In this document: piece after piece, positions 9,533 to 62,310 of the stretch
Layout: every line of letters starts with the position of its first letter
How positions within the stretch are numbered: position 1 is the stretch's first letter
NCBI GenBank assembly: GCA_025642065.1
Contig: JAODUP010001045.1
Coordinates: forward strand, 80,528-144,527
Length of the DNA stretch: 64,000 nucleotides
Origin: Paralvinella palmiformis
Lineage: Eukaryota; Annelida; Polychaeta; Terebellida; Alvinellidae
Reading direction: 5' to 3'
Notes under the pieces: model-generated
Seen by the model: only the letters and a program-made list of their open reading frames with translations
The model's database searches: none
What the model was told of the DNA's origin: nothing
Made by a program: the position numbers and the translations under genes

Positions 9533-10555
9533 TCAAGCCGGAGGTTCACTCCACACCAATATTTCTCTAAACCCGATATAACCATCAGCTTCATCACATC
9601 GGCCTGAACACACGATCTTGACGAATGTCGTCTGTACCATGTTGATATAATACATTTCCATGGGTACGTTAGTACAGTCGTGCTTAGTTGCGTGTCCATT
9701 ACACTGTCGTACACGCTGAAATATACAATATAGGAATATGTCGGCTAACGTTCTTGGTGTAAATCAATTTTGTTCGGATTTCCCAAACAGTAAAAGTGGT
9801 AAATACCGTTGAATAAAACCCGGTGTGTATGCACATTTTGAAATCATTATCTAAATCAGCTCACCGTGTCCTTTCTTCCGTCGCTGAAGCTGAACATCAT
9901 TTCGCTACACTGTGTCCTGTTACGACATTTATGGTAGATGTCTATCCTCTCTACGATCTGGGTATCGTTTAGTTGTAACTTGATCCACTGATTATGATCT
10001 ATGGATTTACTGGACCAGACATCGATTAGATTTCCATTCATTACTCTGCCGCAGTCTGAGGGATTAACTGAAGCATCACAAGTGGCTCCCAAACTCGGCA
10101 AAGCGCTATTCATACCGCTGTAGTATTTCTCTTTGTGGTCGGGCACCATAGAGACAAATAACAGTTATTATCGCATATTTTCGTCGTAGAAATATCGCAA
10201 ATTGCAAACCTCATTTGAGTAAAACAAACATTTGTTGCTTACCATAGAAAGACCATTCTTTGTTGGTAACATTCGGGTTTATCCAATTTGTTTTCTCTCC
10301 GAGAATTGTACAAGTGCCAATTTTCTCACCCGATTCAGACCAGTTCATATTAAATCCAACGCATTCGCTGTATAAGCGACAAATCCTCCGACAAGCGATC
10401 CAAGTGACATTATGGGACATTTCTTGAATGCTCCTGCCACCACGCTGGATGTTCGGCCACACGAAGAAGTTGCCTTCATAGCAAATACCATTTGTGTGAC
10501 AACTTGGCGGATATATAGCAAACAGGAATGGCAAAGTCAACCATAACACTTCCAT
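9533..10555 (-). CDS. Secreted apple/PAN plus F5/8C (discoidin-like) protein, three exons
   Basis: Exon 1 (10555-10243) encodes a signal peptide (MEVLWLTLPFLFAIYPPSC) and an apple/PAN-like domain with spaced cysteines and N-glycosylation sites (NVTW). It ends in a strong donor, G|GTAAGC. Exon 2 (about 10145-9865) encodes the first half of an F5/8C or fucolectin-like beta sandwich, with WSSKSIDHNQWIKLQL and ERIDIYHKC; donor ACG|GTGAGC. Exon 3 (9715-9533, acceptor tatatttcag) continues in frame to FVKIVCSGRC, DEADGYIGFREILVW, SEPPA and a stop. Phases 1 and 0 fit, giving about 259 residues. Such proteins usually act extracellularly in adhesion or glycan recognition. The in-frame acceptor for exon 2 reads GG instead of AG, so this copy may be damaged. 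The large minus-strand frame visible over exon 3 is not the spliced frame. Confidence 0.75.
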
Positions 10556-10559
10556 TTTA

Positions 10560-11375
10560 AGGAATTGTATTAAACTTTATCGGCAAAGTAGGACAGGACC
10601 ATTCCAAGATTGCTGTTATCATATAACATCAGGTCAAAACAATTCTTAATATAATTATAGCATGCTTCATTTGCTAGCTAATTCGGATGCCTTGGTATTA
10701 TAGCCCCAGTAAACATATCTGAAATACAATAGCATAGTAAATACAATGACGTATACCTACAAAATGTCTAATATTACTAGTCTCGACACTTTAACTTAAA
10801 CAAAATATACTTTGATTTATCGTTGTAAAATTTGGCTAACATGCAGATTAAGCCTAAATGTCAATTATAATATTTTTCTGTCAACATTAGGTATTCTTAT
10901 TGGTTTAAGTATTGCTTTATCACTCATTATTTTAAATTTATCTTCATCTTTTCCACAATACTCACCTCCGATGTATTTCCATTCTTTCATCTGCCTATAT
11001 TCCGGTATCACGTCTCCTCATTTCCCTTGGTTACTGACCAGAGTCATCATTCACTTACCAATATGAAAACACAGTCTATCGTTATCAGTCTACGTATCCT
11101 ATACTGTTACCAAGATCTATATGCATTATAATTAGTGTAATAACGGAATATTCTGAACATTGATTCCTTAATCAATTGGCACATCTCGGTCGTTAATCTC
11201 CTACATTTTTTTCTTTAGTAGCATCTTTCGATCAAAGTCTCTCATATCTGATAGTTAACACTGAGGAGGAGATTATTTATTTGTTTAACGTAACCTTCCC
11301 TCTGTCCTCATCGATGAAAATAAGCCAGTAACAGGATAGCGAGCCAACGAATATTGAACGAATGTAAAAGGGACC
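10560..11375. other. Non-coding stretch upstream of the lectin-like gene
   Basis: AT-rich. It contains one hydrophobic 84-codon frame at 10812-11066 that has no splice context and looks fortuitous. No TATA box could be assigned with confidence. Confidence 0.4.
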
Positions 11376-18963: not shown

Positions 18964-19675
18964 TCAGTATATGTAGTTTTGATGGACCCCCACTAGTAAG
19001 CCAATGATCACCCCAATAATTATAATCGCGCCAATGACGAAGCCAGCGATAGCGAGTCCATATGCCGCGAGTCTCTTCACCTTTGAGCGCTCGAACTGAT
19101 TCGTTGAGTGGTCGACATAAGAGAGCACTGCCATCACGGTGGCCACGATCCCAGTTGCGAAACAGCACAACATCGATACCATGGCGGTAATTAGACTGCC
19201 CCAGCTCCAAGGTACTGCGTTACTTTCGATGTTAGATTGGGTGATGGGCACAACTTGCTGTAATGAAAACAGAAATTATGGAACGATCAGGATCTAGGTG
19301 GAATATCAATGTTGGCAAGGTCTAATCGCGATAGGATATACATTGCAGACTTGACCAGGAATGACGTTTTAGGTCAGATATGTACCCTGGAATTTTAGAA
19401 AGCGGTAGGGTTGTATTTAGACCCAGGAACGAAATAATATGTATGATAAAATAGATCGGAATTTCAAACATAATAAAGACTAGTAGTAGTACTGTTTCCT
19501 TGTTATTCTTATATTCGTTCCGGTAAAAGGAGATAGAACGGTAGCTATGCGTTTATATATTTAGGTGTAGATTTGTGTGCGAGGATTGCATTACCGGAGC
19601 TGAGGCACTAAAATCCGACATTGGACTTTGATCTGCATATTGATACTGTTGGTTGGTTTTGTTCAGGTGAGCCAT
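18964..19675 (-). CDS. CD225/dispanin (IFITM-like) two-pass membrane protein, two exons
   Basis: Exon 1 (19675-19595) starts at MAHLNKTNQQYQ and ends GCTCCG|GTAATG. Exon 2 (19257-18964, acceptor tttcattacag) begins QVVPITQSN. The phase-0 join gives 124 residues. The domain starts with the intramembrane segment SLITAMVSMLCCFATGIVA, carrying the CC pair typical of S-palmitoylated IFITM proteins. A basic loop with FERSKVKRLAAYGLAIAG and the transmembrane segment FVIGAIIIIGVIIGLLVG follow. Length and layout match CD225 proteins, which restrict membrane fusion or traffic vesicles in vertebrates; a role here is inference. A further upstream acceptor at 19700-19699 suggests a separate 5' UTR exon. 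A longer overlapping minus-strand frame (19210-18905) is a shadow. Confidence 0.85.
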
Positions 19676-35700: not shown

Positions 35701-38700
35701 CGCCTACATTTGCAGGAAAAAACATTTTGAAAATGACAAATACAAATCTGGGTTTGTTCATTGAATAAATTATTGTTTCTTATTATTTTAAATGTTTTAT
35801 TTGCCGTGTGAAACGTAGAATAGGCTGAATATCAGCAGGACCACTGGGCCGGCAACTATAGAAAGATGCACGCCCGGGTCAAGAAGTGTTGGCCCCACGC
35901 CGGCTCTTATTTCCAACACTGCACACACACACAGAGTGCAAGAAGCTACACCATATAGAAAGGTGCTAACTGATGATGATGATTGATGTTTTACGGCCAC
36001 ATCTGTGCATATGTTAGACTAAAGTCAAAAGATGAAACACCCTACAGATATGCCCACACCGAGATTCGAACACACTAGCAGTTAGACCACACAGACGCCC
36101 GAAGAAACGTGCTTACTGAACGAAAGCCTCTGACGGATGAAGCACCCCTAATGATGTCGACAAAACACTGGAGATTCAACGGTACAAACTGGACATCTGT
36201 AGTACAGCCCACTACCAGCTCCAATAATGAGCATACAAATAAACATTGTTTTGACAGTTTATAAACAAACCAGCATTCAGCTTTAATGTGTACCACCATT
36301 AATACCTATCAGACCAAAATTAAATGTCTCATTATATCAGACCAGCCAGCTAATATATAATCCACAAACTGGGTGCATAAATACATATAAGTGACACAAC
36401 AAACAGGGATTTTCAGACTCGCTTATCCTTCCTAAGTTTCCTTTCCATCTGATCATTTGTTGATGAACTTTGCATCGTACCCGGATGACGAATGCAATTA
36501 TTAATAGCTACCATTAGACGTAACTGGTACATGTATTAGTTTTTAGACATTGAATTTTATATATAACGGTAACAGTCTTTTCTTCCAGAATTTTAAAGCT
36601 TTCAGTTTGCAAATATTTAAAATCACTCACTTAACATACTACAACACCAAACACATCCAGTGCTCCTGGAGGAGGATGGAAGAAAACAGATTAGAAAATA
36701 TCAAAAGTATGGGTGTTTCCAGGATGACATGTCCATGACGTTACGCTACAGTGAACATTTACTACCAAGGCACCCCCAATATTATTATTAATGTAAACAC
36801 AAACAATAGATGCACAGCATTCATTGGACACTATTTATAGAAACATGGGAAGAACCTTCGTTTACTGGTCACGTGTCACACATGAAAATTATGTATGGAA
36901 ATTCGCTAACTTCCCACAAACACCTGGTAAACAGGGGCATATTCTAACCACAGCCATGGGTTCTGTGGGGGGAATTGCCAGTGCAAGGTTTTTCCCAAAA
37001 ATATATTGATTGGTCACCAGATAGAATTCACTCCCGTTAAACAACACTGGGGACAGACATGACTCATTCATGGAGTAACATACGAACAGATCATGAAACT
37101 AGTTCAGCGTGTTCGAAGAACAATGTGAAGGGATAACCAATTGCTGATGAGGAAGGACAATGAGATGAAGACATTGGCTATCTAATGATGAGTTATAACC
37201 AATAATAATGATGGTGAAATCTAATAAAATTGGAAAAACCCGGACAGGGATTGTTATAACTGGTATAAAAAGACCACGTTGACAGACAGGATTAAACTGA
37301 ATGTCAGCAAAAGGTATACATTATACTATTAAAAAGAGGAAAGGAGCTCACTAGAAACAGCCGACAAGATGAAGATGTTACTATCTCTTAAACTGTGTAC
37401 CTTCATAGGTAAGTCAACGATCGTGATCATCTCACAATATCAGTGATCTATCCTAAATGGCTCAGCGAAGAAGGTGTCCTGAGAGAATATGAGCTCGCTG
37501 GACACTGTGGACAAATTATTATCTATTGGATGCTAATTAAACCGGTAACTAAAAACAGTATAGCCACTTGGTAGCTGAAGATGGGATCAGATTGCATAGT
37601 TCTACTCTGAAGAGCTAATTACAAACAAACAAGTTCCATAACACAGATGGTAAATTATTATGACAAAAAAATGAGCCTAATTTTGAACAAATATTACTAT
37701 ATCGGCAGCATCAGCATAACGCTCTTTCACATCAAAGCTGTTCAATGGATAAAAATCAACTGCACTTATTGCTTGCTCATCTCAAAGCGGAGCATCTACG
37801 TGGTCTAAGTGGCAGACCTCAGGCACTCCGGTTCAGAACCAAGCCAGGCAATATTTCAAGGGTGTTTCATCACTTCCCTGGTGAAAAGATCATGAACTAT
37901 TCAAGAATCGTGCATGAACAGTTCATGCACAGAATTCATGAATAACACATGAACAGTTCATGAATGGTTCTTGAACATGAAATGGTCCTATTCATGAAAA
38001 GTTCATGAACATTTCAAGGCACAGAGCTTAGGAACTGTTCAAGAACATTTCAATGCACATAGTCCATGAACAGTTCATGAATGGTTCTGAAACATGAAAT
38101 GGTCCTATTCACTGTAAAATATGCATATTTCAGTAAGTGAGAAACTCCAAACTAATTAGTTTCATTATTTATTTTATCATAAAAATAACAATCATTTCTC
38201 ATGTAAATAAAATATAATTCAACTGCATGGTTTAAACAAATCCGAACTCAACTAAAATTTGGAGCTCAGCTCTGGGCAGACTGTGACTGTCACTGACCCT
38301 GGGCTACATGGTTACGCCTTACGGTAATAGCAGACCTCTAGATCTATTACCTAACAATAGTAACATTATATTTACAATTGATGCCACTAGACTAGGTAGT
38401 AGGTCTAGATCTAGATCATACTTCATAATCATAGACATAGATAAACATTACATGTCTAGGTGTTAAAACATAAACCGTTGATTAGATCTAGATCTATATT
38501 CTATATGCTATTTCAGTATCTGTTTTAAAAATATACACTAATACACTATAATAGTCAAATAGAAATCTGAACGTTACTTAGAATTAGATGTAGATCTAAC
38601 AGTATCATTATGATTAGAGTCTAGACTCTAGATATAATCCCTTGTTAATCATAATCATAATGCCGTCTCCTGCTCTCCTTTACGATAATCGGAAAATCCT

Positions 38701-41085
38701 TTCTTGGTGTAACAATGCCTGTGTCTTTAACAATACTCAACAGGCTCTCCAACACCCAATCAACTAAAATATACATGCTGATTTAAGATGGTCACATTTG
38801 AAAACTTCTTAAAGCTGTTGTAAACAACACTTGTATGAGGCTGCTCTTAAACCACTCAACCGTTTAAAACAAAACTAGCAATCACGCTTTTATCTCGTTG
38901 ACAAATCACATCACCGGAAAATCGCGCGAGAGTTCACGCATGCGATTTATAGGCCTAGTTGTTGCTACTTCTAAACCCGGCACTGGTAAGGGGACAGGTT
39001 CGATTCCAGTAAGAGGTCGAAACTTTTCCAGAGATTAATTTCTCGGCTCACAATATCGTGGGTGGCTAACCACGTTAAATGACGCTGCCTTCTCCACTGA
39101 ATTATTAAAAATAAAGGGGGACGTTGTCGTTAAAGACCCCATGAGGACGTAAAATAATTAAATACTCTGGCAGTGACCACCTTCAATAAAGGCTTCATAG
39201 TATTTCGACTCCATCTTTCCATACTGCTCCTCTTTGAGTGGTGGGAGAGGAGATCCCCAACCACTCCAATATAGAGGCTGTGCCGAATACGTGACAGCCT
39301 GGGGATTCTCCCCAAAAAACAAAACAAACACAAATAATCCGAGATAGAAAGCATGTTCTTAATCTTAGTTTAATTATGAATATTTGACTTAGAATTTGAA
39401 TGGAATTGACAAAATGAAATTGACCCTATGTCTGACAATTAAAAGTCTTAAATGTTGGTAATTCATCCTAGAAACTAAATAATATGCCAAAACTACTTGT
39501 TTCATATGTTTTGTTCTCGGTAAAAAAATCGAACTTTAAATATTTTTCAGCAATTCTTGAACTCATAATGTTTATGAATGGTATATGGAGTTCTTGGAAT
39601 GTTCTTCAACAATTCTTGAACTAGGTTCATGAACAATTTATGAATGGTTCATGAACCTTTCCAGATTCATGAAATATTCTTCAACCATTCATGAACTTGT
39701 ATGGTGAACTGTTCATGAACTATGGTTCATGAACCAGTCATGTGAACATTTCATGAGTAGTTCATGAATAGTTCAAGAATGTTCATGAACAGTTCATCAA
39801 GTCATGAATTTCATTTCACCAGGGTTAGCCTACCGCTAGCCAATTAGCAACCATAAAACTGCAACATTTTACTTCAGTTCTCATCTTAAAGTGAGTGGGT
39901 GACTGAGTTGTTTGTTTAGTCTCGGCACTGGAGAAAAAAAAGCTTTTACCCGAGGACTCAAACCTGACTTACATGTTTGTACTATAGCATAGTCATGGAA
40001 TATGCTGACTGCAGGAAGACAGTGACACTTAGCTCGCCTTCAAAATATCACTTCTCCAGGTCATTCCCAAAATACAATTTCATGTAGCAATTAGTGGTCA
40101 GACAGATTATATAATAATAATAATGACAAAACTTCTATTGCACCAATATCCTTGAAAAGAATTGAGCTCATTAGCGCATCTAGTACAGGTGTTGGGTAAA
40201 CTCGTGGTCAAGGTTGATGGTGCAAAGTTCATCAACAGATGATCGGATAGAGTGGAAACTTAGGAAGGATAAACGAGTTGGAAAAGGTGAGTTTTCAAAT
40301 GGTGAAGGAAAGAAACTATGCTCTTTGATGACTTAACATGTTCAGGGAGTGAATACCAAAGAATATATTAATAATAAAAGTAAATATAAAAAATAAATAC
40401 AAAAATTATATAAATATATTAATAATAATAATAATAAATCGGTTTCCGGAAAAAAATTATATTTCTTCAAAAGCAAAATATTTACATATATTCCGATCAC
40501 TTACTATTAGTCTGCTGCCATTAATTTGTCCAGTGAGGTCACAGAGCCTAATGAGGACACCAAAATATTGGCCAAGTCAGAAATGACCATTAAAACTAGT
40601 ACTTCTAAACCACAGACTTGTCGCATGACGAGATAACATCTATTTGAAATGATCTATTTGAAGAGGCATATAAAGAATCTACGTTTGCTTTTAGAATGGA
40701 AATGGGGATTTTATGAGGGACATGCCGATTAGAAAATCATCTTCAGAAATCAGCTAATTGAAAAACGTAGAGTAAATTCCACAATACCGCACCATTGGCC
40801 GCAATACAATCCCACTACATGAGTGACCAGACTTATAAACTAACATAATTCACAATAAAGTGCTGCAGAATATAAGAATAGAAATGTACAGAAGATGAAT
40901 AAAATACCAAATTTAAAACATTGTCTTGGTATATGGAGAGTCACGAATACACAAATCTGTGTGGTATATAAACACTTTTCAAAACATACACATTGATTGA
41001 CAGAAAACGAAAACACACCGTTTATAGCTGGATTATTTGGTGGTAGAGAATCTGATCTTGAAAACATGGATTATTGTAAATGTAG

Positions 41086-41145
<60 letters not shown>

Positions 41146-41163
41146 TGTCTGTATGTATATATA

Positions 41164-41194
<31 letters not shown>

Positions 41195-41222
41195 ATACAC
41201 AAATACACACACACACACACAC

Positions 41223-41253
<31 letters not shown>

Positions 41254-44200
41254 ATATGCACACTGAATGTGGTACCCTGTGAGCATTTAACCAATTAAAA
41301 TGTTCTGGATACAGTACCTGGTAGGTTCTGCCACAACACTGTGACACCACCACATGGTATTCTTGTAATCTATATAGAGATATTGCTATTTAGGAATTTA
41401 TCTCCTTGTTCAATGTTTAGAATGGGCAAACAAAATTTAAATTCACAAATTAATTTACCATTTAATTCAGAAATATTTCTTCGATGACATTCCTACCTAC
41501 TCATGGTAAAATGTATTAGCCAAAAAGTCAGAAAAAAAAGGAATTGGAATTGATAAATTTGATGTGGAATTGGAATTGACCAAAATGGAATTGAGTGGAA
41601 TTGACAATAATGGAATTGACCCCATGTCTGATATGGGTCATTCCATATAAAATGGACCAAATTCTGAAAAAGTTCCCACCTAACAACTTCAGATTGTATT
41701 AATATTTTTTATATATCAACCGCTTAGTATAATGTATATGATGCGGTCTGGCACATATTTTAGGTTTCGCTAAAAATATTTTCAGAGTTTGAACTGCCAT
41801 TAGGGGTACCTCTTATTTTGTCACTTTGTTTGAACCCTGATAACTTTTTAATAAATTGGTATAGAGACATGAAACTTTCAGGGCTGAAAGCTAATGAGTA
41901 AATCTATAGTTGGCAGATTAAGTCAAAATCTGGATTTTATTAAGTTCAGTTTTTTTTTTCTAACAACTTTGCAAATCAGTATCTTCAGAACCATGATAGT
42001 TAGCAATGTTGAAACTATACAATTTCAATCTCTGTACTCTGGAGTAATAATAAAATGAATGGCAAGCATACACATATAATCTGTTGTCAGAATGTAACCA
42101 CAGAAATCTGAACAAATTATGTTTTGCCTTTTTTTGGTCGGATCATATCATCATGTGGGGTAAGTGGTAGGTGAAAATAATTATACCATGTGATAGAGCT
42201 CAGTTTTCTCTAAAATGTTATAACAGATTCAACTTCTAGACAAGTTTCCTGCCATAATAAAGGTAATTTTCAAATTATGCATATTTTCGCACTTGAGACA
42301 TGGTAAAGGATCTTGCAAGTCCTTCTGGCTTCATGAAGTCTTTATGGTCTATAGGACAGACGCCTCTGATCTATATAACTGTATCCCTTTATTTTATAAC
42401 AGTGTTGCTGTTTTTGATGCTGGTAATGTCAGGCAGTGAAACACCATGTTCCGGATCAGTGAGGGTGTCCAGCCGTTATCGACACAGCCATCATCAGAAT
42501 AACATGGAAGCAGACTTGGTCAGGGATATTCTTCATGCAATACGCGTCATGCAACACGAAGGGAATAAGCTGAGAAAAATATATGTGAGTTATGGAAAAC
42601 AACAGCCAACCAGCCGTGTTACATGTACACTAACTTCATACTGTAAGACCTTGCTTATTACCTGTGTAGCAGAACAGCCCCATAGGCGAATTTGTGAGCG
42701 AAAGCGAGAACGCATCGCAGCAATGCGAATCACCTAGTGAAAACATATCAGATAAACAGTCTTTTTTAAAAACCTAAACCAATTTGGGACCCTTTTAAAC
42801 CACTGCACTATAGTAGCACTCAACAAGGCCCATTAGACCAGACTTATTATCAAATTACCCCCATTCCACATACAATTAATGAATGAGATCGAGTGCTTTA
42901 TTTAACCTTGCTGGTGGTCACGCATTGACTGCTTTATTTAACCTTGCTGCTGGTCACACCTGGAACATTATAATGGCCACGAGGTGACTAATGTGTAAAG
43001 TCTACAGTAAATTCCCACCATATCAGATAAACAGTCAAATCACTTTACCACATCTTGTACCTATTATATCGTATTTTAAACTCGACTCATCACTAACCAA
43101 TCTATGTTATATTTCAGCTCCTACTCTTGGGCCGAGAGTTAGAAATACCACTGGAACTGTTCCAGGACTATAAAAGGCCAAAAATAGACTCAGATCAGGT
43201 AATAATGACATCTCGGTACATCCAATTGTTCCAAGCTTAAATCTATTCTTAACTGTTACTATTATTAATGGTAACAGTTGAGAATGTCTGACAAACATGT
43301 TTTAATAGTATTAAAACATGTTCGTCAGACATGTCCTAATTAAGGCATAACAGAAGCTCATTAGTCTGTGAGAGGCCATTACCCATGACTCAGTATTAAA
43401 AAATGTTGCTGTCTTTACAGCCACCTTTGTTCACAAGGTTAAGGCTAAATCATAGTAAACGAGCCTAAACAGACTCAATGGTTTAGTTCATTCGTACACA
43501 AAACAGATAAGTTATTAATCTAGTAATAGAATGAAAATTATCTAATGACAGAAGAACTTTCAACCCACAGCGGGTTGTGGCAAGAGCCACACTAATGCTA
43601 CCCAGCCCCATAACATGACTCTGTTTTTTCAAGCATCATATTGTTTAGTTTGGCACAAACGTAGAATGCTTTAGTCAGGTCCACCAATTATCTATGATTT
43701 TTTTAAACATTCCAGTACGGGTTTTTCCAGAAATAATTAGCTCATGCCATAACAAGATCAAGACATTCTAAAATGTATATTTTACCCATGATGCACCTAG
43801 TAATTATTAATTATCATGCAGGGAACATTTTGTTTAAAAAAATATTAGCAACAATTGCTAATCAATTGGGGAATTATACAAATTCAGGAAATGTCCTGGA
43901 AATAACATTGTGCCGGTCCATAGTCTTGATATCCTGTGTTAGTTAAAATTTAAATAAAAGTGGGTGGTCCAGAGAGCTAGGATGGGTGAGGAGGCTGTAC
44001 CATAAAAATGTCAATAATCGATCATACATTGATTAAATATATGCCATTTTCGCACATATCTTGATTTATTGTACATCTTGTCCTGGAAAATGGTCATTTT
44101 GTTTTAGAAAAGTCGTGAAAAATTAAATTTCCTTGGTCGTGGTAACCATGATGTGTCACTACAACTACAAAATGTCACTTGAACAAAACAGTGTGTTGCA

Positions 44201-46146
44201 GCTCCGTAGTTAATTTCACTCACTAGTGTCTTGCCCGACTTGACGACCACATCTACTGAGGCCAAGTCATCAAGCTGGGAATGTTTCACATAGGGCTGTA
44301 TGTTCAGATGACACCTTAAGTAGAAAAGAGGGCTTAGTTATTACGTCGATGAATAATCGGCTGAAGTTGCGTGACTGGTTGATCCAACTTTTGGACAACG
44401 TGTAAGCCCCAAATCTTGTCTAACAATCCAACTTTCGCATCTATATTCAGCCACGGTTTGAACTCTGCCTCCTTTAGGCATTTCTCAGCTGTCATATAAC
44501 GTACCGCTTGTACAAATCTTCTACCATTAGGACTATTACAAGACACAAGGTGTTTGAGTTTATTCTAAAAGCATCTCTGAACTAAAGTGTACATATTTTT
44601 ACCAGGATGCTTCTAGTAATTACTGATGATCATGCAATCCGTGTAACTTGTATAGCGATTTGCGACACGATACTGAACAAAATGTCCATTGTCATGTCAT
44701 GTTTTCATGCTGTGGCAACACAAGCTGCGTTGCACTAGGATGTTCTGACATTAAGCTTTACTCTTTCATATCAAATCAGTATTTAATAATATATTTATTG
44801 TCCTCACTTAAATCAGATGGCTTGGAAAATAGTGCCTAACGCTGATAACCCATTGATCATGTCATTAATAAAGATGACTAGAAGTATGTGTTTTGGTTGT
44901 CCGATTGATTAATTTAGTCTCAGCCCTGTAAAAATATCCGTGTGTCGGACTGACTGTAGCCCCGGGGTCCAGCATCCTCCTAGACCTAGGTCGGTTCTGG
45001 TTGTCATAAAAACAGTTGATCCGTCTTGAATACTATCTGTGCAGCTCATTAAGCACAATTACAACATCATCAAATCTGAAGAAACCTATCGAAGGTGGTA
45101 GTAATAAGATGATTAATTAATAATAGCACCATATTACAGAATGCCAACGACGACGTTCTGGTCAGTATTTATCTGGCTGCAGACAATTACACGGAGAAGC
45201 TGACCTGCCTCCGCCAAGAACAGATCCTAACAAATGACATTTACAAATATCCACAAAGCGTTGACGATCGATTTTTGTCCACCTTCTCAAGATTCATGAC
45301 TCGCTGGTCAACATTCAGATGTCTGCTCTACCAATTGTTAAAAAAAGCTGGAGCGATGGAAGAATGGACACCAATAATAACAACCGAGGGACGATGTCAA
45401 CAATCAAATGCTGGAACCAATCGTCTGCTCAGCTGTGGCAGATCGTACGCCTTGTTCTACTTCCTAAAGCAAGAGTATTTAACATCAGCTTCCAGCTACT
45501 TCAAGCATATGAGACGAACAGACAGACAGAGGGAGAGCTTAGGGTGATCTTTGCCCATCTTCATCTGAAGGATACGTACAAGAAATATAAGTTTACCTAA
45601 TCCCAGCTGCTGATCACTAAAGATATAAAAACTAACCTAAATAGATTCAAAACATCGTCAAATTCTGCTCTAAGTCACTCTGACCTTAAGGTGCTTCTCA
45701 TTGGCTGATCAAACGAACAGGCAACCAATAAAAGAGCATGCTATTAATATTATAATAAGTATTATAATAATAACAATAATAACGCACTTCAGAGTTTCAA
45801 GAACAATACTTTGGAATGTATAATTGATGGCAGAATGGTGTCAAGCCAAAGCAGCCATATCAATCAACGATTTGGTCAAGAGGAAAACTATGCCATGTTT
45901 AACTTTCCAAGTAATTCGTTAATCCCGAGACACTGGAGACAATTTAAGGCATAACATATGGATAAGTCATATGGATAAAAAATCAATATTTGTTATTGTT
46001 TATAATTTTGTATCAATTTCAGATAACAATATTACTCTGTAAACAAACTTGTGAAAGTGTATTTTGTGGGTATTTTTCTACTTTTGTACGTTTATGGCTA
46101 TTCTGTGATTTATATATATTTATATCCTCTTGTAAATATCAGGCAC

Positions 46147-46178
<32 letters not shown>

Positions 46179-49100
46179 ATATATGTATGTGCACCACTAT
46201 TTAACTTGTACAGGCCTATATTTAATATTGTATATACATGTATAAACCATAATGTATCAAGTATACCCTTTCTCATCTCTCTTCACCTTTCAGTGATCTC
46301 ATGAACAATCTACTTTCAGTGATCTCACGAACAATCTACTTTCAGTGATCTCATGAACAATGTACTTTCAGTGATCTCATGAACAATCTACTTTCAGTGA
46401 TCTCATGAACAATCTAGTAGTGTAATTTATTTATCTCTTGTGTCACATAAATTATAGGCACTTATGTCAATAAATCAGTCTTATCATTATTATCAATGTT
46501 TAGTATCTGTTAACTCTGACTATTATCTCTCAGTGAATGTTTATTATGATAGATGCTGGTCATACCTGAGGTACATTGTCTTCGGGGGGGGGGGGGTAGA
46601 CTAAATGAGCCGAGCGACCTCAAAAGGTAACGAAGTGAAGTCAAACATGAAACTGCCCTCAGATATGCCCACACCGAGGTTCGAACTCAGGTGGTAGTGA
46701 TCTGTGATTCAACACTGTACCAGTTAGACCATGGAGGCCCCCTATATGTAGCAGATGATATCATGTACACATTCTTGAGGCGACCTAGGGTGACAGCAGT
46801 GTTTTGTTAATGGACTTTATAGAACAACAACAAAACCTGCAATAATCATTTATGATCAATTTATATTATAATACATTTATATAATGTGTAACTGTTGAAG
46901 AATGACACCAACAGTGACACTTGATTCAAATTCCATGCGCTGCTAATCGATCTAAATTTAATAAAGCATAAAATAGTACAATACTTTATATAAAAAATGC
47001 TATCTGATTAAAAAAGTACAATACTTTAAAAACAAAAGTACAACTTGTCAGCACTGCAACCAAATTAAAAACAGATGAGATTAAGTGCAGCTGTAAAATA
47101 GGTAAGATTCTTAAAAAGAAAGGTGCTGATGTATAAATATTCTGTAATTAGTAAATTGATTTCTTTATTTAAAGGGACAGTTCACACTCTTAAAAATTTC
47201 TTAAATATGTAATGCTTAGAACAGTAACCAAAAATTCCACAATAATAATGATGTTCTATCTGGGGTACCACAGGGCTCTGTCCTTGACCCCTTATTGTTC
47301 CTTAATTTAATAGCTGACATAGACAAATCAGTAATATCTTCATTTCTGTCAAGCTTGTTGATGACAAGCTGATTATCAGTGGGCCATTGATAACAACATG
47401 GCGTTCAACTGTGACAAGTTTTAATGTGCACAGTATGGAAGAGATAAAGAATACTATATCATATCACCTAAATACAGGCAGTATAATTGCAGAAAAAGAA
47501 ACAGCGAGAGACTTGGGTGTCTTGATGAGCAAAGATAGCACATTCAAGACACACATCAAGAATGTAGCAGATGCAGCAAAGAAAATGTGTGGCTGGATAC
47601 TCGAACTTCCAGGATACAAGAAGTCAGTCCCAGTTGTGGAAATCACTAGTCCTGTAAAAACTGGACTACTGCAGTCAGCTTTGGTCTCAATCAGAGAAGG
47701 GAGATATGCAAACTCTTGAAGCCATCCAGGGATCCTTCACCAGAAAAATGGCAGGCATCTAGACTACTGGGAACAGCTGAAAAAGCAGAGAGACTCTATT
47801 CCTTACAGAGGAGACGGGAAAGATACATGATTATCTATACCTGGCAAATTCTGGAGGGACAATTACCAACATTGGAGAGTACGGCATAACGTCATCAAAC
47901 CACATAAGTAGAGGACGTACCTGCTTAATCCGCAGAATTAGTAAGGCAGCTCCAACGGTGGTACAAAAGCAAGCCTATGCAAGCTGCACAATCTGAACCC
48001 CCCAACATAATGCCCAAAAAATTCCTGAAAAAAAATGTTTCAAGTTTGGACCATTAAAGAAAAAAGGCCAAACCTTGGGGTTAAAAAGGGAAAGGTGGTG
48101 ACTGCGAGTCTATCACAGCAGGCGGCCATCCATGGCGACCCAGGGACTGATCCTAAAACCATCACAATTATAATTAATAATCACCAAATATACCTGATAT
48201 GATAGATATAGAGAAATAATCCAAATTACTGGAGGTCGGCCATTATGGCTGCACCGGAAGCCAAATTTGAAAGCGGGAAGGAGAAAACTCAAATGATCTG
48301 ATATTAGATGAGCACTCTCTGGACTGACGCAGATTATAATTGCTCTTGAGTGTTGATATCTCAACCATTCAAGATGTTGTGATATACAGTTCACATTTGA
48401 ACCAGCTAAAATACAGTTCAAATTTTGCACAGAATGGCAACAAAGAGATCCCTTCTCGGAATCCATTGGTTCACAGAGTTCACACAGACACCAGTCAAGT
48501 GTTCCCAGTTCTCCTCAAAGTTTCTTCAACGATTTCGCTATCTTCAAAATGATCAGAATCATCTTCCTCTTCTAAGGTTGCTTCTGGCTAAAACTGATAT
48601 TGTTGTATGTCATTCATGACGTAATTTCTGTTATGTTCTGTAATAATTCTTTGCTCACACTTGTTTACATGCTTTTGTACAGGCCCTACAGACTTCTGGT
48701 CAAACTGCTGTGTTCAATTGACGTCAGCATTCAGTATCTTCCTGTCTCTGTCTAGCTTCAAAATAGAGGGACCCACAGGTCATTAAAAGTCGATTAATCA
48801 GCACTTTGAACTGGATTATTGAATGTGTGGGTTAATTTGTGAGCATAAGTGTATTAGTCCTGAAAATTGGAAATGAAGGTGGACTATCCCTTTAAACAAT
48901 CTCAAACTCATGGTTGACAAGTCTAACCCAACCCTCAGTTAAATCCAAATTATACTGGAGTTGGGCTAAATCTCCTTTTTGGACTAAAATGGGTTTAATA
49001 TAGTTCAACAATAAATGCCAGGATAAAACCAATAAAATGTGATATGTACATTTACAATTCCATTTGGTCAATTCCAAATTGATCCTTTCCATTTTTTACC

Positions 49101-52100
49101 ATGAGTAGATACCCCAAATAGTTTATATTCCAAGTAGAATTGTCACGGAAGAAATATTTCTGAATTAATAAAATAAAATGGTAAATTAATGTGTGGATTT
49201 TAATTTTTTTGTGGCAAACCAATTTTTTATTTAAATAACCAATTCGAATTCCTGAATTGCCCATCAATACAAATCCCGGAACTGAATTGAGCCCCCCTCC
49301 CCGTGTCTGATATTTACTGTCAATATAAAGTACACAAATAACAGTAAGTTGAAGTAAATGTAGGCCTAAATCCAGTACAGAATACTAAACAATAACAAAG
49401 GTGACCTGTGGGCGCCTCCATGGTCTAGCGGTAGCGTACTGGACCACAGATCACTACCACCCGTGTTCGAATCCCGGCGTGGGCATATCTGAAGGTTGTT
49501 TCGTCTTTCACTTCGTCTCATTACCTTTGGAGGTCGCTCGGCCCATTTAGCCTACCTTGTGCACAAAAGTGGCCTAAAACATCAATCATCATCATCATCA
49601 CATGACCTGTGAGAGATAATGAGAGTATCACTCCAACATCCCCCCCCCACCATATCCTACTAAGTTTTAATACAACCTCATATGGTGTTCACAACATGGA
49701 GCAATAATAATAATACGGTGGTTACCTGATGGCGGAATTCCAAGATCAGCCAAGATCTTCTCTGTTTCATGGCAAAGATCATGCTGTACAGAGGATGATG
49801 TAGCGCCTCCGAGCTATAATGGAAAATTAATTACATTTTATTTAACTTCCTTGTAAAATATTTAATTTCTATTGAAATTTACATAGCTAACTCAGAATAA
49901 CAGACCTGGAATATGGAAGCCATTGTTCAAATGATAATACAAAAATTCTGCACGACTTCTCCAAAATCTTTACCTCCCTGGGCCAATTTCTTGGCTGTTT
50001 TATTTACACAGGTTAATCACGATCGTGTCTTTTACACAGGTTAATCACAATTATGTTTGTATACAGCTTAATCATGATCAGTGAAAATAATTGCCATGGA
50101 TATTACAAATAGCAAGAACTGGAACCTTTATTAAAAATGCATTTGCTGAAAATAACATTAAATCCAAATATGGATCAAACACAATGAGCTGCTTCATCTG
50201 AAGGTATCTGACTCGGCCTTTCATTAAAGGCTATCTGAAATTCACACAACCAACCAGTCTTTGAAATGACAAATATTTTTCCATAATTAAATGCATAAAT
50301 ACAATTAAGTAAAAATATCTGTCTCAATCCAAGGGTAAAACAAGTCCATTTTTAAATAACTCAATAATTTTTTTATAGAATTTGGAATTGATCATGTCCA
50401 CAAAATAATTTGCCACTTAACTTTTCCGTTGCAAAAAAATAAGTAATAACATTATATATAGCCCAAAGACTAATGCCATAGATCTGATCAGCAGAGTTCA
50501 AATTTTGACATGAGCATGCTTGAAGCCTGTGAAGGGTGTTTCATCTTTCACTTTGCCCCATTGATTACCTTTGGAGGTTGTTCAGGCCATTTAGCCCACC
50601 ATGTGCACAAAAGTAGCTGTAAAACATCAAACAAACAAATAGTGTCTTCCCATTTTTCTTATAGACAACCATCTACAAGGAATTCAATAATTGACCGGAC
50701 TTGATAATGACCAGAATTGATAAATTTTATTTACGGAATTAAGAATTGCTGTATATACTCGGCGTATAAGTCAACCAGACAGATAAGTCAAGGTCATTTT
50801 TGACCCTATAATTCTTTCCTCAAGTCAAATATTGGCTTAAAATCTATCAAAATCCTAACTGTTGTCGTCATTCCCGTAAAAGCTGACCCAGTTATTTCAA
50901 ACTCATGGTGTCAGCAAGTGCATCGTAAATATATTAATATAAATTTATTCACTCGCAGGGATACGCACATATAATAATAATAATAATAATGTATATTTAA
51001 TAAAGCGCCCTTACTAGCAGGAGCCATTCAAAGGCGCTGTACAAATAATATGTAATTTAATAATACCCCAAATAATGTCTGTAAAAACCCTGTAATGATT
51101 TAAAAGATAATAATTATTTATCTGTGAAAACGACCTTAAATAGGTGTGTTTTTAGAAGAGACTTAAAATTTCCAAGAGACGACGAATTTCTAATATTTGC
51201 CGGCAACTTATTTGGATTTCGCTTTGACGTTATAACTAATAAACAAACTTGTCACACCAAACACGCCTGATTGGTTTTAATTAATTGTTATTTATTGAAT
51301 AAGACTAGTAGGCAGCGATGTGAGGATTTTATTCCGACTTCGGCTCTTATTGGGTTCAATCCTATAGTCACACAATAGTGTTGTGTGTAAAAGATGGCCG
51401 AAAACATCTTTCCTTCGGCTAGTAGGAAATATGATGCATATAAGTTGAGGTGCTCATGGGAACTCCCTTTTCCCTACCCAAAAAAATTGACTTATACGCG
51501 AGTATATATGGCGATCAAATGGAATTATGTGGAAGTGGCGTTGACAAATTGAAATAGAACCCATGTTTGGCAGGAGAGAAGCTATAAACAGCCACTCAAA
51601 AAAAAGGACAACACTGGAAATAAGTGTTCAAAGTTTGTTTTGTGTGCTATCTAGTTTCTTGATCCTTTTTTAACACACTACTCAATATTTGACACATGAA
51701 TTTGTACATGAATAGTATGATTATATCAAAATAATGACATTCATCATACAAAGTGAATATTGTCTATCTAAACTGTTAATAGTTTAATTTAACATTGCCT
51801 CTGAGAATCCAATAGCAGAATACCAGCTTAAAAGCTTTGCTGTTGCCCAGAAGATTGTACACTTTAGTCACATAGTTTAGTGTGAATATTTCCGGCCCAT
51901 TTAGCCTTGGAAATATTTGCCCAAATGGTGCTGATGAAACTGAATCTGTTGTACATTTTGTGTAGTGGACATGCATTCTGGCAGCACTGTTAGCTTGCTG
52001 ATGACCAAATTTTTTTGCACTTTGCATATTTTTCATTTCCAATGGTAACACGTCAAAAATATTCATATATGGAATTCTGTGGCGTTCTACCTTTATACAT

Positions 52101-56539: not shown

Positions 56540-57302
56540 TATTTAATCTACAAATTAATTTACCAGTTAATATAAACTACTCGGATTATGATATTCCAGG
56601 TAGTTACTCGGAGTAGATACTTGGAGTATCTACTCGTGGTAAAAAGTAGTAGGTAAGAAGAGTCAGTAAACAATGGAATTGATAAATTTGATGTGGAATT
56701 GAAATTGACAAAATGGAATTGAATTTGACAAGACGTCTCTGTGACTGAATATAAACTACTCATATTAGGTATTCCAAGTAGGTCCTCGGAGTACCTAACC
56801 TACTCATGGTAAAAAGTAGTAGGTAAAAAAGAGTCTGTAAAAATGGAATTGGAAAATTTGGAATTGATAAATTTGATGTGGAATTGATAAATTTGATGTG
56901 GATTTGATAAATTTGATGTGGATTTGACCAAATAGAATTGATTGGAATTGACAATTGACAAAATGAAATTGACCCTGTCTGACAATTACTGGTCTTAAAT
57001 GTTGGTATTTCATCCTAGAAACTAAATAATATATTTATGCCAAAGCTACTTGTTTTGTATGTTTTGTTCTCTATAAAATTGGACTTTAAATATTTTTCAG
57101 CAATTATTGAACTCTAATGTTTATGAATGGTATATGAGGTTCTTGGAATGTTCTTCAACAATTCTTGAACTAGGTTTATGAATGGTTCATGAACCTTTCC
57201 AGATTCATGAAATATTCTTCAACCATTCATGAACTTGTATGGTGAACTGTTCTTGAACGTTCATGAACAGTTCATCAAGTCATGAATTTCATTTCACTCG
57301 GG
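56540..57302. mobile_element. Second copy of the TTCATGAAC-array element (partial)
   Basis: From about 56930 it follows 39390-39824 (cttaaatgttggta, catcctagaaactaaataat, atatttttcagcaatt, then the ttcatgaac array) and ends ttcactcggg. The 5' part contains GGAATTGAC words and a 20-bp tandem (gaattgataaatttgatgtg, three units at 56861-56920). The left terminal repeat was not found. Confidence 0.6.
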
Positions 57303-57337
57303 TTAGTTTGACCCCTACCATGTTAAAAGCCTTGTGA

Positions 57338-60634: not shown

Positions 60635-62310
60635 ACACCCCACAGCTTTGTCGGTTTATTTAATTTGAATTTATTTGGAATAATATTATTCCCACGTGAG
60701 AATGGTATCATTTAAATGAAAATGCACACAATATGATGGGCTTTGATTTGTTATGGAGAAAACATTATCAATTCGAATGCACACACACACACACACAAAC
60801 ACATGTTGTTAGATTTTCATACTTTCCTTAAACTGGTTCCTGCTATGTACTAAATTTATAATGGTGTGATGTAATTTTACAGAGTTCATGACAAGGCCTA
60901 TGATCGTTGGATGCCACATATTAACTTGGTTTATCCATTCCTGCCCGACGTTAATGCCGGTGATGCATTCCTAGAAGCATCCAGCACAATTGAGAAGGCT
61001 CTGTCCGCCATCCGGCCGTTTAGAGTTCGGTTCACAGCGGATTCGTTTAAGTCCTTCAGGCATAGCAAGAACTCAACACTGTGGCTAAAACCACTGCCTT
61101 TGACTGGAGAGAACGCAGATCAGATTGACGAAATGGAGAAGGGCATCCACGTCATCTCTGGTAGTGATGACAGTGAACATCGAGATGAGCTTTCAGCTGC
61201 TGCTGCAGATATTTCTGATAATTTGGTCCCAGCAGAGAGGAAGATCAATAAGAAAGAGGAGACTAATAATAGACTAGAGACTGCGGATGAGAATTTCGGT
61301 GTGCCGCATCCAGAGCTTATGAAGCTACAACATGTAATAGAGGCGCAGTTTCCCATATTTCAGGTTGGCTATAATTCAGCGATTATTCTTAATTACACCG
61401 ATGACCCAGGATTGGGTTTGGTCAGTTAGTGGATTATGCCTCATTTAATTTCTTTAAGGCATGTATTTTTTACTGGTAACCGTATTTTCCAAATGGAGTA
61501 TATCTGCTTTAAAGAATTAGTCTGCTGTTTTTGTCTAGTTACTATCCAGCTGGCATTAACACAATTACTCCTTTGCTCCATCCCCTCCCTTGCCATCTGG
61601 GCTCATTATCAATGTCAAAGTGAGCCATATCGTGTTTTTTATTCTATAATTACGTTGTTATTAATTGCTATTTTGCCATCAACAAAATTCAACTACCATA
61701 GGACATAGAAATATGTCAAGGACAGTATTATGAGCCATAATATTCATTTTCTGTGGGTTGTGATTTGTTAGTATGTACTCACTGACTGGAGAATATGTTC
61801 CTATCTTGCTATTGTTGTTATCACTTTGATATATGAGGGGCGCCTCCGTGGTCTAGCGGTAGTGTGCTGGACCACAGATCACTATCACCCATTTTCGAAT
61901 CCTAGCGTGGGCATATCTGAAGGGTGTTTTTCGTCTGACTTCGATTCAATACCGTTGGAGGTCGCACGGCCCATTTAGCCTACCATGTGCATCGTCACCA
62001 GCCTGTTGATCCTTCTGTTTTACAGACTGCTGAATCTAACTGATTATGGCTTCCTGAAACCTATTTTATATTTATTTCGGAATTGATTTCATTTTACTTT
62101 CAGGATCTCAGCACTCTGTCAGAACGAGGCTACACACCACACCTGTCCCTTGGTCAGTTCTCAACGAAACGGGTGAATGTCTACCGGGAACAGTTCTCCG
62201 AGAAATGGTCCGATATCGAGTTTGAAGTGGATTGTGTGCATCTGATCAGCCGATATGATTTCCACGATCCATTTCAGATCAGAAAGTCTATCGAAATAGA
62301 ACAAAAATAA
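59672..62310 (+). CDS. 2H phosphoesterase (2'-5' RNA ligase-like), three coding exons
   Basis: Exon 1 59672-59745 (MKSYKSAVVIIPPESLWQQI, donor AGACA|GTAAGT), exon 2 60883-61363 (acceptor taattttacag, donor TTTCAG|GTTGGC), exon 3 62104-62310 (acceptor ttttactttcag). Phases 2 and 0 fit, giving 253 residues. The two family signature motifs are HIN in RWMPHINLVYPF (exon 2) and HLS in GYTPHLSLGQF (exon 3); such pairs bind and act on RNA or nucleotide phosphoesters. An acidic, lysine-rich insertion lies between the lobes at about residues 102-145. The first motif has Asn where Thr or Ser is usual in the superfamily. The substrate cannot be told. The start follows upstream exon sequence (cagcaaaggctcggtg) that is probably 5' UTR. 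Confidence 0.85.
59916..60008. repeat. (TA)n microsatellites in intron 1 of the 2H gene
   Basis: Two TA runs, 59916-59945 and 59970-60006. Confidence 0.9.
60453..60632. repeat. Paired (TA)n microsatellites
   Basis: TA runs at 60453-60483 and 60600-60630. Confidence 0.9.
61838..61997 (+). mobile_element. tRNA-derived SINE family A in intron 2 of the 2H gene
   Basis: Starts gggcgcctccgtggtctagc with an intact A box and a B-box-like tttcgaatcc, and follows the family body to ccatgtgc. The tail is lost. Confidence 0.85.

Follow-up and report, generated by a model that had tools for sequence, protein, structure and literature searches.

The genes of long-chain class I helical cytokines follow a common layout, with introns of phases 1-0-0-0 and the loop between helices A and B (the AB loop) on an exon of its own. 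Their coding exons measure 19, 191, 114, 147 and 168 nucleotides (nt) in IL-6, 13, 146, 87, 180 and 156 nt in EPO, and 10, 161, 120, 165 and 198 nt in GH. LIF is simpler, with coding exons of 19, 179 and 411 nt and phases 1-0; LIF and OSM have a signal peptide and CNTF has none. G-CSF has five exons and four introns (PMC6389648). Among invertebrates, known IL-6-like ligands include the Drosophila Unpaired proteins (Upd1-3), which bind Domeless (PMC13203501, PMC7378365; here and below we cite extracts of the sources). Here we analyse a 64,000-nt stretch of DNA (C50:80528-144527, called the window), part of a searchable genome of 594,056,205 bases in 2597 contigs, and within it a four-exon gene that a sequence-only reading had taken for an IL-6/LIF/CNTF-like cytokine. 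Our analysis supports that claim by way of an intron directly after a motif tyrosine, the helix-A sequence around it and an exon elsewhere in the genome that resembles class I receptors. We consider the product likely to be an IL-6-class cytokine, secreted and of the long-chain helical type, that probably shares descent with vertebrate LIF, CNTF and CLCF1.

The gene itself was borne out as it had been described. Its four exons (37369-37408, 42403-42584, 43118-43198 and 45140-45547) splice to a single frame of 236 amino acids followed by TGA, all three introns are GT-AG, their phases are 1, 0 and 0, and frame, coordinates and junctions all check. The claimed signal peptide also stands, as judged by sequence: a hydrophobic N-terminal stretch spans exons 1 and 2 across the phase-1 intron and reads as a likely signal peptide, so that secretion is predicted. 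The phases 1-0-0 and a first intron within the signal peptide are found here as in the vertebrate 1-0-0(-0) pattern, which we take from general background, and with exons of 40, 182, 81 and 408 nt the gene looks like the long-chain class I pattern with its last intron missing. Its features are as follows.

37264-37270, plus strand: candidate TATA box (TATAAAA), a consensus match 105 nt 5' of the start codon, kept in the second haplotype (contig C370, discussed below).
37369-37408, plus strand: exon 1, 40 nt, coding for the start of the likely signal peptide (MKMLLSLKLCTFI) and ending in phase 1; 40/40 nt the same in C370.
37409-42402, plus strand: intron 1, phase 1, GT-AG; the other haplotype lacks about 37875-39825.
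42403-42584, plus strand: exon 2, 182 nt, with the rest of the signal peptide, an N-terminal linker with C29, and helix A as far as Y74; open and with the same splice sites in C370.
42570-42584, plus strand: codons L70-x3-Y74, the final five of exon 2 and the first part of the motif that ends helix A in LIF, CNTF and CLCF1.
42585-43117, plus strand: intron 2, phase 0, GT-AG, directly after Y74, at the position of the vertebrate CNTF and CLCF1 intron.
43118-43132, plus strand: codons L75-G79, the opening five of exon 3 and the x4-G part of the motif.
43118-43198, plus strand: exon 3, 81 nt, predicted end of helix A and AB loop.
43199-45139, plus strand: intron 3, phase 0, GT-AG, just 5' of predicted helix B.
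45140-45547, plus strand: exon 4, 408 nt including TGA, predicted helices B, C and D, N-glycosylation sequon N117-Y-T, and cysteines 124, 162, 187 and 200.
45143-45241, plus strand: predicted helix B, residues 103-135, interrupted at 118-123 (low-confidence AlphaFold).
45266-45346, plus strand: predicted helix C, residues 144-170 (low-confidence AlphaFold and helix test).
45428-45517, plus strand: predicted helix D, residues 198-227 (low-confidence AlphaFold and helix test).

New evidence comes from the gene structure, at intron 2. Exon 2 ends in GNKLRKIY and exon 3 begins with LLLLG, and a motif L-x3-Y-x4-G (residues 70-79) straddles the junction, with the phase-0 intron directly after its tyrosine (L-x3-Y|x4-G). 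The motif occurs once each in human LIF, OSM, CNTF, CTF1 and CLCF1 (5/5), where it ends helix A. In our panel, which was assembled without short-chain class I cytokines, it was found in none of ten other class I cytokines and in one of six controls (14-3-3 zeta), and it is absent from IL-6, G-CSF, IL-10 and IFNA2. Of the features taken as marks of the LIF/OSM/CNTF/CTF1/CLCF1 branch, the motif and the phase-0 intron directly after its tyrosine are present in the window gene.

The intron position in CNTF and CLCF1 can be read from the proteins themselves. An alignment of the window protein with four human cytokines, used as a query, found 207 proteins; the 120 listed serve here as CNTF/CLCF1 relatives, and all of these bear vertebrate names or are unnamed records. 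The motif is present in 100 of the 120. The other 20 comprise 15 that have the block following the tyrosine without the motif before it, two that start inside the motif and three in which it is substituted. One of the 15 (P0120) begins exactly at the codon after the tyrosine, and the remaining 14 (4 CNTF, 10 CLCF1) have sequence that is unrelated, by eye, up to the residue after the tyrosine. In 11 of these 14 a glutamine stands just before the block, as is expected from read-through of a phase-0 CAG acceptor, and the other three look like alternative isoforms. All 14 informative proteins place the CNTF/CLCF1 intron at the same residue, and two isoforms (P0059 and P0063) break right after LAGTY, on the donor side. 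A test based on BLAST alignment edges flagged five of the 14 and missed the rest, presumably because short chance matches lengthened the alignments. Because read-through and isoform proteins break there, we read vertebrate CNTF and CLCF1 as having a phase-0 intron directly after the motif tyrosine, as the window gene does; LIF probably has the same phase-0 intron. It is because intron 2 follows the same helix-A tyrosine as in CNTF and CLCF1 that we argue for descent from a common stock with LIF, CNTF and CLCF1.

How often would chance produce such an arrangement? From composition, the motif anchored at the intron is expected with a probability of about 3e-4 (6 of 20,000 simulated cases), and none of 100,000 shuffles matched the intron-anchored helix-A block. 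That block shares 7 of 28 residues with human CLCF1, 6 with LIF, 5 with CNTF and 4 with OSM.

A second line of evidence comes from elsewhere in the genome. The sequence-only reading had proposed looking for a gp130/Domeless-type receptor. The first cytokine-binding domain has the signature C-x9-C-x-W. The Pfam model IL6Ra-bind gave a single weak genomic match (16.7 bits, E 4.4, under the cut-off). This match is a receptor-like exon of 127 nt, running from phase 1 to phase 2, which lies at C1076:451014-451140 (L011:14-140) and encodes ...PQKPRFTGCVVYNWLSMNCTWKP..., with C-x9-C-x-W. Searched alone, it matches IL6Ra-bind at E 9.7e-4 and TSLPR_D1 at E 3.7e-3, both below their cut-offs. Against the PDB, up to E 10, 14 of its 15 matches are receptor chains, drawn from five class I cytokine receptors: IL-13RA2 leads (E 0.031), followed by IL-31RA, common gamma, gp130 and OSMR. 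The odd one is XKR8. These sequence matches are weak singly; their weight lies in their being nearly all of one kind. A simple scan of about 49 kilobases (kb) downstream gave four candidates for a WSxWS-like exon, none convincing by eye.

Where, then, does the gene stand among the known systems? With CNTF and CLCF1 it shares the motif that ends helix A, the intron within it and the helix-A block; it differs from them in an extra phase-0 intron before helix B (by general background on those two genes), in having no significant similarity over helices B-D, and in lacking a Pfam match. LIF and OSM share the motif as well, and LIF, like the window protein, carries cysteines ahead of helix A and within helix C, and it has exons and phases comparable to those of the window gene, whereas the cysteine spacing differs from that of LIF and OSM and LIF lacks the third intron. 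IL-6 and G-CSF resemble the window gene in their phases, 1-0-0(-0), and, for IL-6 as background, in the AB loop on its own exon; both lack the motif, and the window gene has one intron fewer. To Upd1-3 the likeness is that of invertebrate IL-6-like ligands, a comparison made by description only. FxxK is the receptor site III motif of ligands that use LIFR or OSMR, and reads FEKK in CNTF, FLQK in CLCF1 and FQKK in LIF; at the start of helix D (residues 187-227) the window protein has none, by sequence. Because it lacks FxxK before helix D, in contrast to the CNTF/CLCF1 and LIF/OSM ligands, we do not file it as a LIFR-type ligand; we class it with the long-chain cytokines of IL-6 type, as a relation by descent of the LIF branch.

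Could the gene instead encode a secreted all-helical protein that is no cytokine, such as a reproductive, immune or salivary protein peculiar to its lineage, with a helix pattern and an intron match that arose by chance? In its favour are the missing whole-sequence similarity, a helix test that does not single out cytokines and the low-confidence fold models. The sequence-only reading had claimed four long amphipathic helices, the AB and CD loops between them being long and the BC loop short. A simple four-helix model does score above shuffles (10 of 2000 reach the real score), which upholds the pattern; helix propensity alone is not significant (224 of 2000). Other all-helical proteins score equally well in the helix test, which fails to separate cytokines from other helical bundles, so the helix pattern is insufficient by itself. 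As a check on the proposed left-handed up-up-down-down bundle, AlphaFold, run on the single sequence of the full and the trimmed protein, gave no confident fold, with a mean predicted local distance difference test (pLDDT) score of 34-35 (34 for the trimmed mature part). The trimmed model places helices at residues 46-81 (with a short break at 66-67), 103-117 and 124-135, 144-170 and 198-227, with loops of 21, 8 and 27 residues between them, at low confidence; this modelled layout is only a hint. Foldseek found no match to it at E 0.001, and a model at pLDDT 34 is too poor for that to count either way.

The sequence searches showed no whole-sequence similarity. Pfam gave no family up to E 10, LIF-branch models included, and the PDB sequence search gave no relative. 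The Pfam miss is not defining in itself, because phmmer searches of the PDB with human CNTF, CLCF1 or LIF each miss the other two. Pairwise shuffling and profile alignment gave no usable support, the alignments being very short or out of register; IL-6 has the best class I pairwise score both for the whole protein and for helices B-D, and with helices B-D alone it is the only one to stand out, not significantly after 18 tries. Searches of viral_contigs and of plasmids gave no match. Against the non-cytokine explanation stand the chance estimates for the anchored motif and block, even before phase 0 at the same codon is counted, and the phase-1 intron in the signal peptide, which by general background also suits long-chain cytokines. 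We regard this explanation as unlikely and retain the IL-6-class cytokine as the better account.

A different possibility is that the host is a vertebrate or other chordate and the gene merely a fast-evolving one of LIF/CNTF/M17 type. The observed/expected CpG ratio of the window, 0.66 overall, is not strictly incompatible with a fish. In 4-kb steps it ranges from 0.42 to 1.03, a mosaic that is usual for invertebrates. Moreover, two protein-database searches with the window protein alone, in a database rich in vertebrate ncbi, nr and uniref records, returned only the window's own open reading frame (ORF; P0002) and P0001, a JGI metagenome ORF that comes from the same or a very close species. 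A chordate host thus seems very improbable, and we take the host to be probably an invertebrate, perhaps a mollusc; Pfam and PDB searches with neighbouring ORFs did not place it.

A wrong gene model or a pseudogene must also be weighed, since the model is known from genomic DNA alone and no annotated protein for the gene was among the protein-search returns. The splice sites, however, are clean, and parts of the gene are open in further sequences. Contig C370 carries a second gene start whose exon 1 is identical and whose splice sites are unchanged; its exon 2 is open and shows 9 differences in 182 nt, against 45 in the 1117 flanking nt compared, and four amino-acid changes, with a nonsynonymous rate (dN) of 0.036 below the synonymous rate (dS) of 0.109. 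Exons 1 and 2 are intact on both haplotypes, if C370 is, as is most likely, the other one; we take it as such because it is collinear with the window and lacks about 1.95 kb of intron 1. The contig stops just past exon 2. A third sequence, P0001, has exon 4 open and is 98% identical to it, differing at 3 of 135 residues; TGA appears to have been read as tryptophan there, because the frame continues past a TGA within intron 3 and past the stop codon. Given these sequences, we hold a defective gene or model to be highly improbable. The length of the window's ORFs adds weak evidence beyond chance (four of at least 135 amino acids, where 40 simulated windows average 0.95 and never exceed 3). Least probable of all is a class II (interferon/IL-10-like) or short-chain class I cytokine: class II introns are phase 0 (PMC8863823) and the first intron here is phase 1, the motif is absent from IL-10 and IFNA2, and the low-confidence model has helices of long-chain size (27-36 residues) and more than 20 residues in each of the AB and CD loops, which is also long-chain.

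The 1.95-kb segment of intron 1 (37875-39825) has TTCATGAA-type repeats near both ends, with related repeats at 57104-57306, and is likely a mobile-element insertion. The window holds no paralogue of the cytokine candidate, and a whole-genome search with the protein at E 0.001 gave nothing further except the C370 copy of exon 2. Downstream of the gene there are possible poly(A) signals at 45727 and 46469, a 26-nt tandem repeat in five copies (46287-46416) standing just 5' of the latter; AUUUA occurs 7 times in the 3' untranslated region against 5.0 expected, which is not significant. An element dispersed at 46595-46721, 49430-49556 and 61858-61984 (copies 76-86% alike) reads, by eye, like a tRNA-derived short interspersed element (SINE), and ARAGORN found no tRNA. 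Of the neighbours, two exon-like ORFs on the plus strand (60875-62310) match Pfam 2_5_RNA_ligase2 at E 6.5e-15, which clears the cut-off, and at 5.9e-6, which narrowly misses it; they bring AKAP7/LENG9 to mind, and the first has no PDB sequence match. On the minus strand, an ORF at 18964-19275 weakly resembles CD225 (interferon-induced transmembrane), at E 3e-4 and short of the cut-off. Two further minus-strand ORFs at 9856-10576 may belong to a single secreted lectin-like gene; the one at 9856-10164 resembles F5/8 type C weakly, with E 4.6e-4, which again does not reach the cut-off.

For the IL-6-class cytokine that we favour, we infer fold, secretion, receptor pairing and JAK-STAT output as follows. 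The precursor would shed its signal peptide and be secreted; the mature protein would fold as a four-helix bundle of up-up-down-down topology, with disulfides between its five cysteines keeping it together. This ligand would dock onto the cytokine-binding module of a class I receptor made by the same animal and of gp130/Domeless type, and the pairing would activate JAK and STAT in the receiving cell; this genome seems to contain one exon of such a receptor.

In the extracts cited, a 2026 survey reports ligands of the IL-6 family from vertebrates only and has IL6R-type receptors appear with Mollusca and onwards (PMC13203501), and a 2021 survey, which could locate no invertebrate members of the IL6 superfamily, mentions that IL6-like proteins have been reported in Drosophila and Asterias forbesi (PMC8226699). 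A survey of IL-12, as extracted, dates the receptors to around molluscs or earlier and suggests that the ligand subunits, p19 and p28 excepted, may reach back to nematodes; it speaks against a strict vertebrate-only view (PMC12162339). For shrimp Domeless the reported ligands are a peroxiredoxin (PMC9195186) and a C-type lectin (PMC5645147); among the matches listed in the open-licence literature there were no other molluscan or other invertebrate class I ligands.

On balance we lean, with some reserve, towards a wider conclusion: that a protostome carries a true relative by descent of LIF, CNTF and CLCF1, with the ancestral intron after the tyrosine and an IL-6-like intron before helix B, together with a gp130-type receptor, and that this ligand-receptor pair predates the protostome-deuterostome split and was missed only through sequence drift. 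The shared intron position would argue for common descent where sequence cannot, and a ligand gene that has it would supply a candidate for the orphan IL-6-family receptors of invertebrates. It would also give a search recipe for other invertebrate genomes: a secreted protein, intron phases 1-0-0, and L-x3-Y|x4-G at the second junction.
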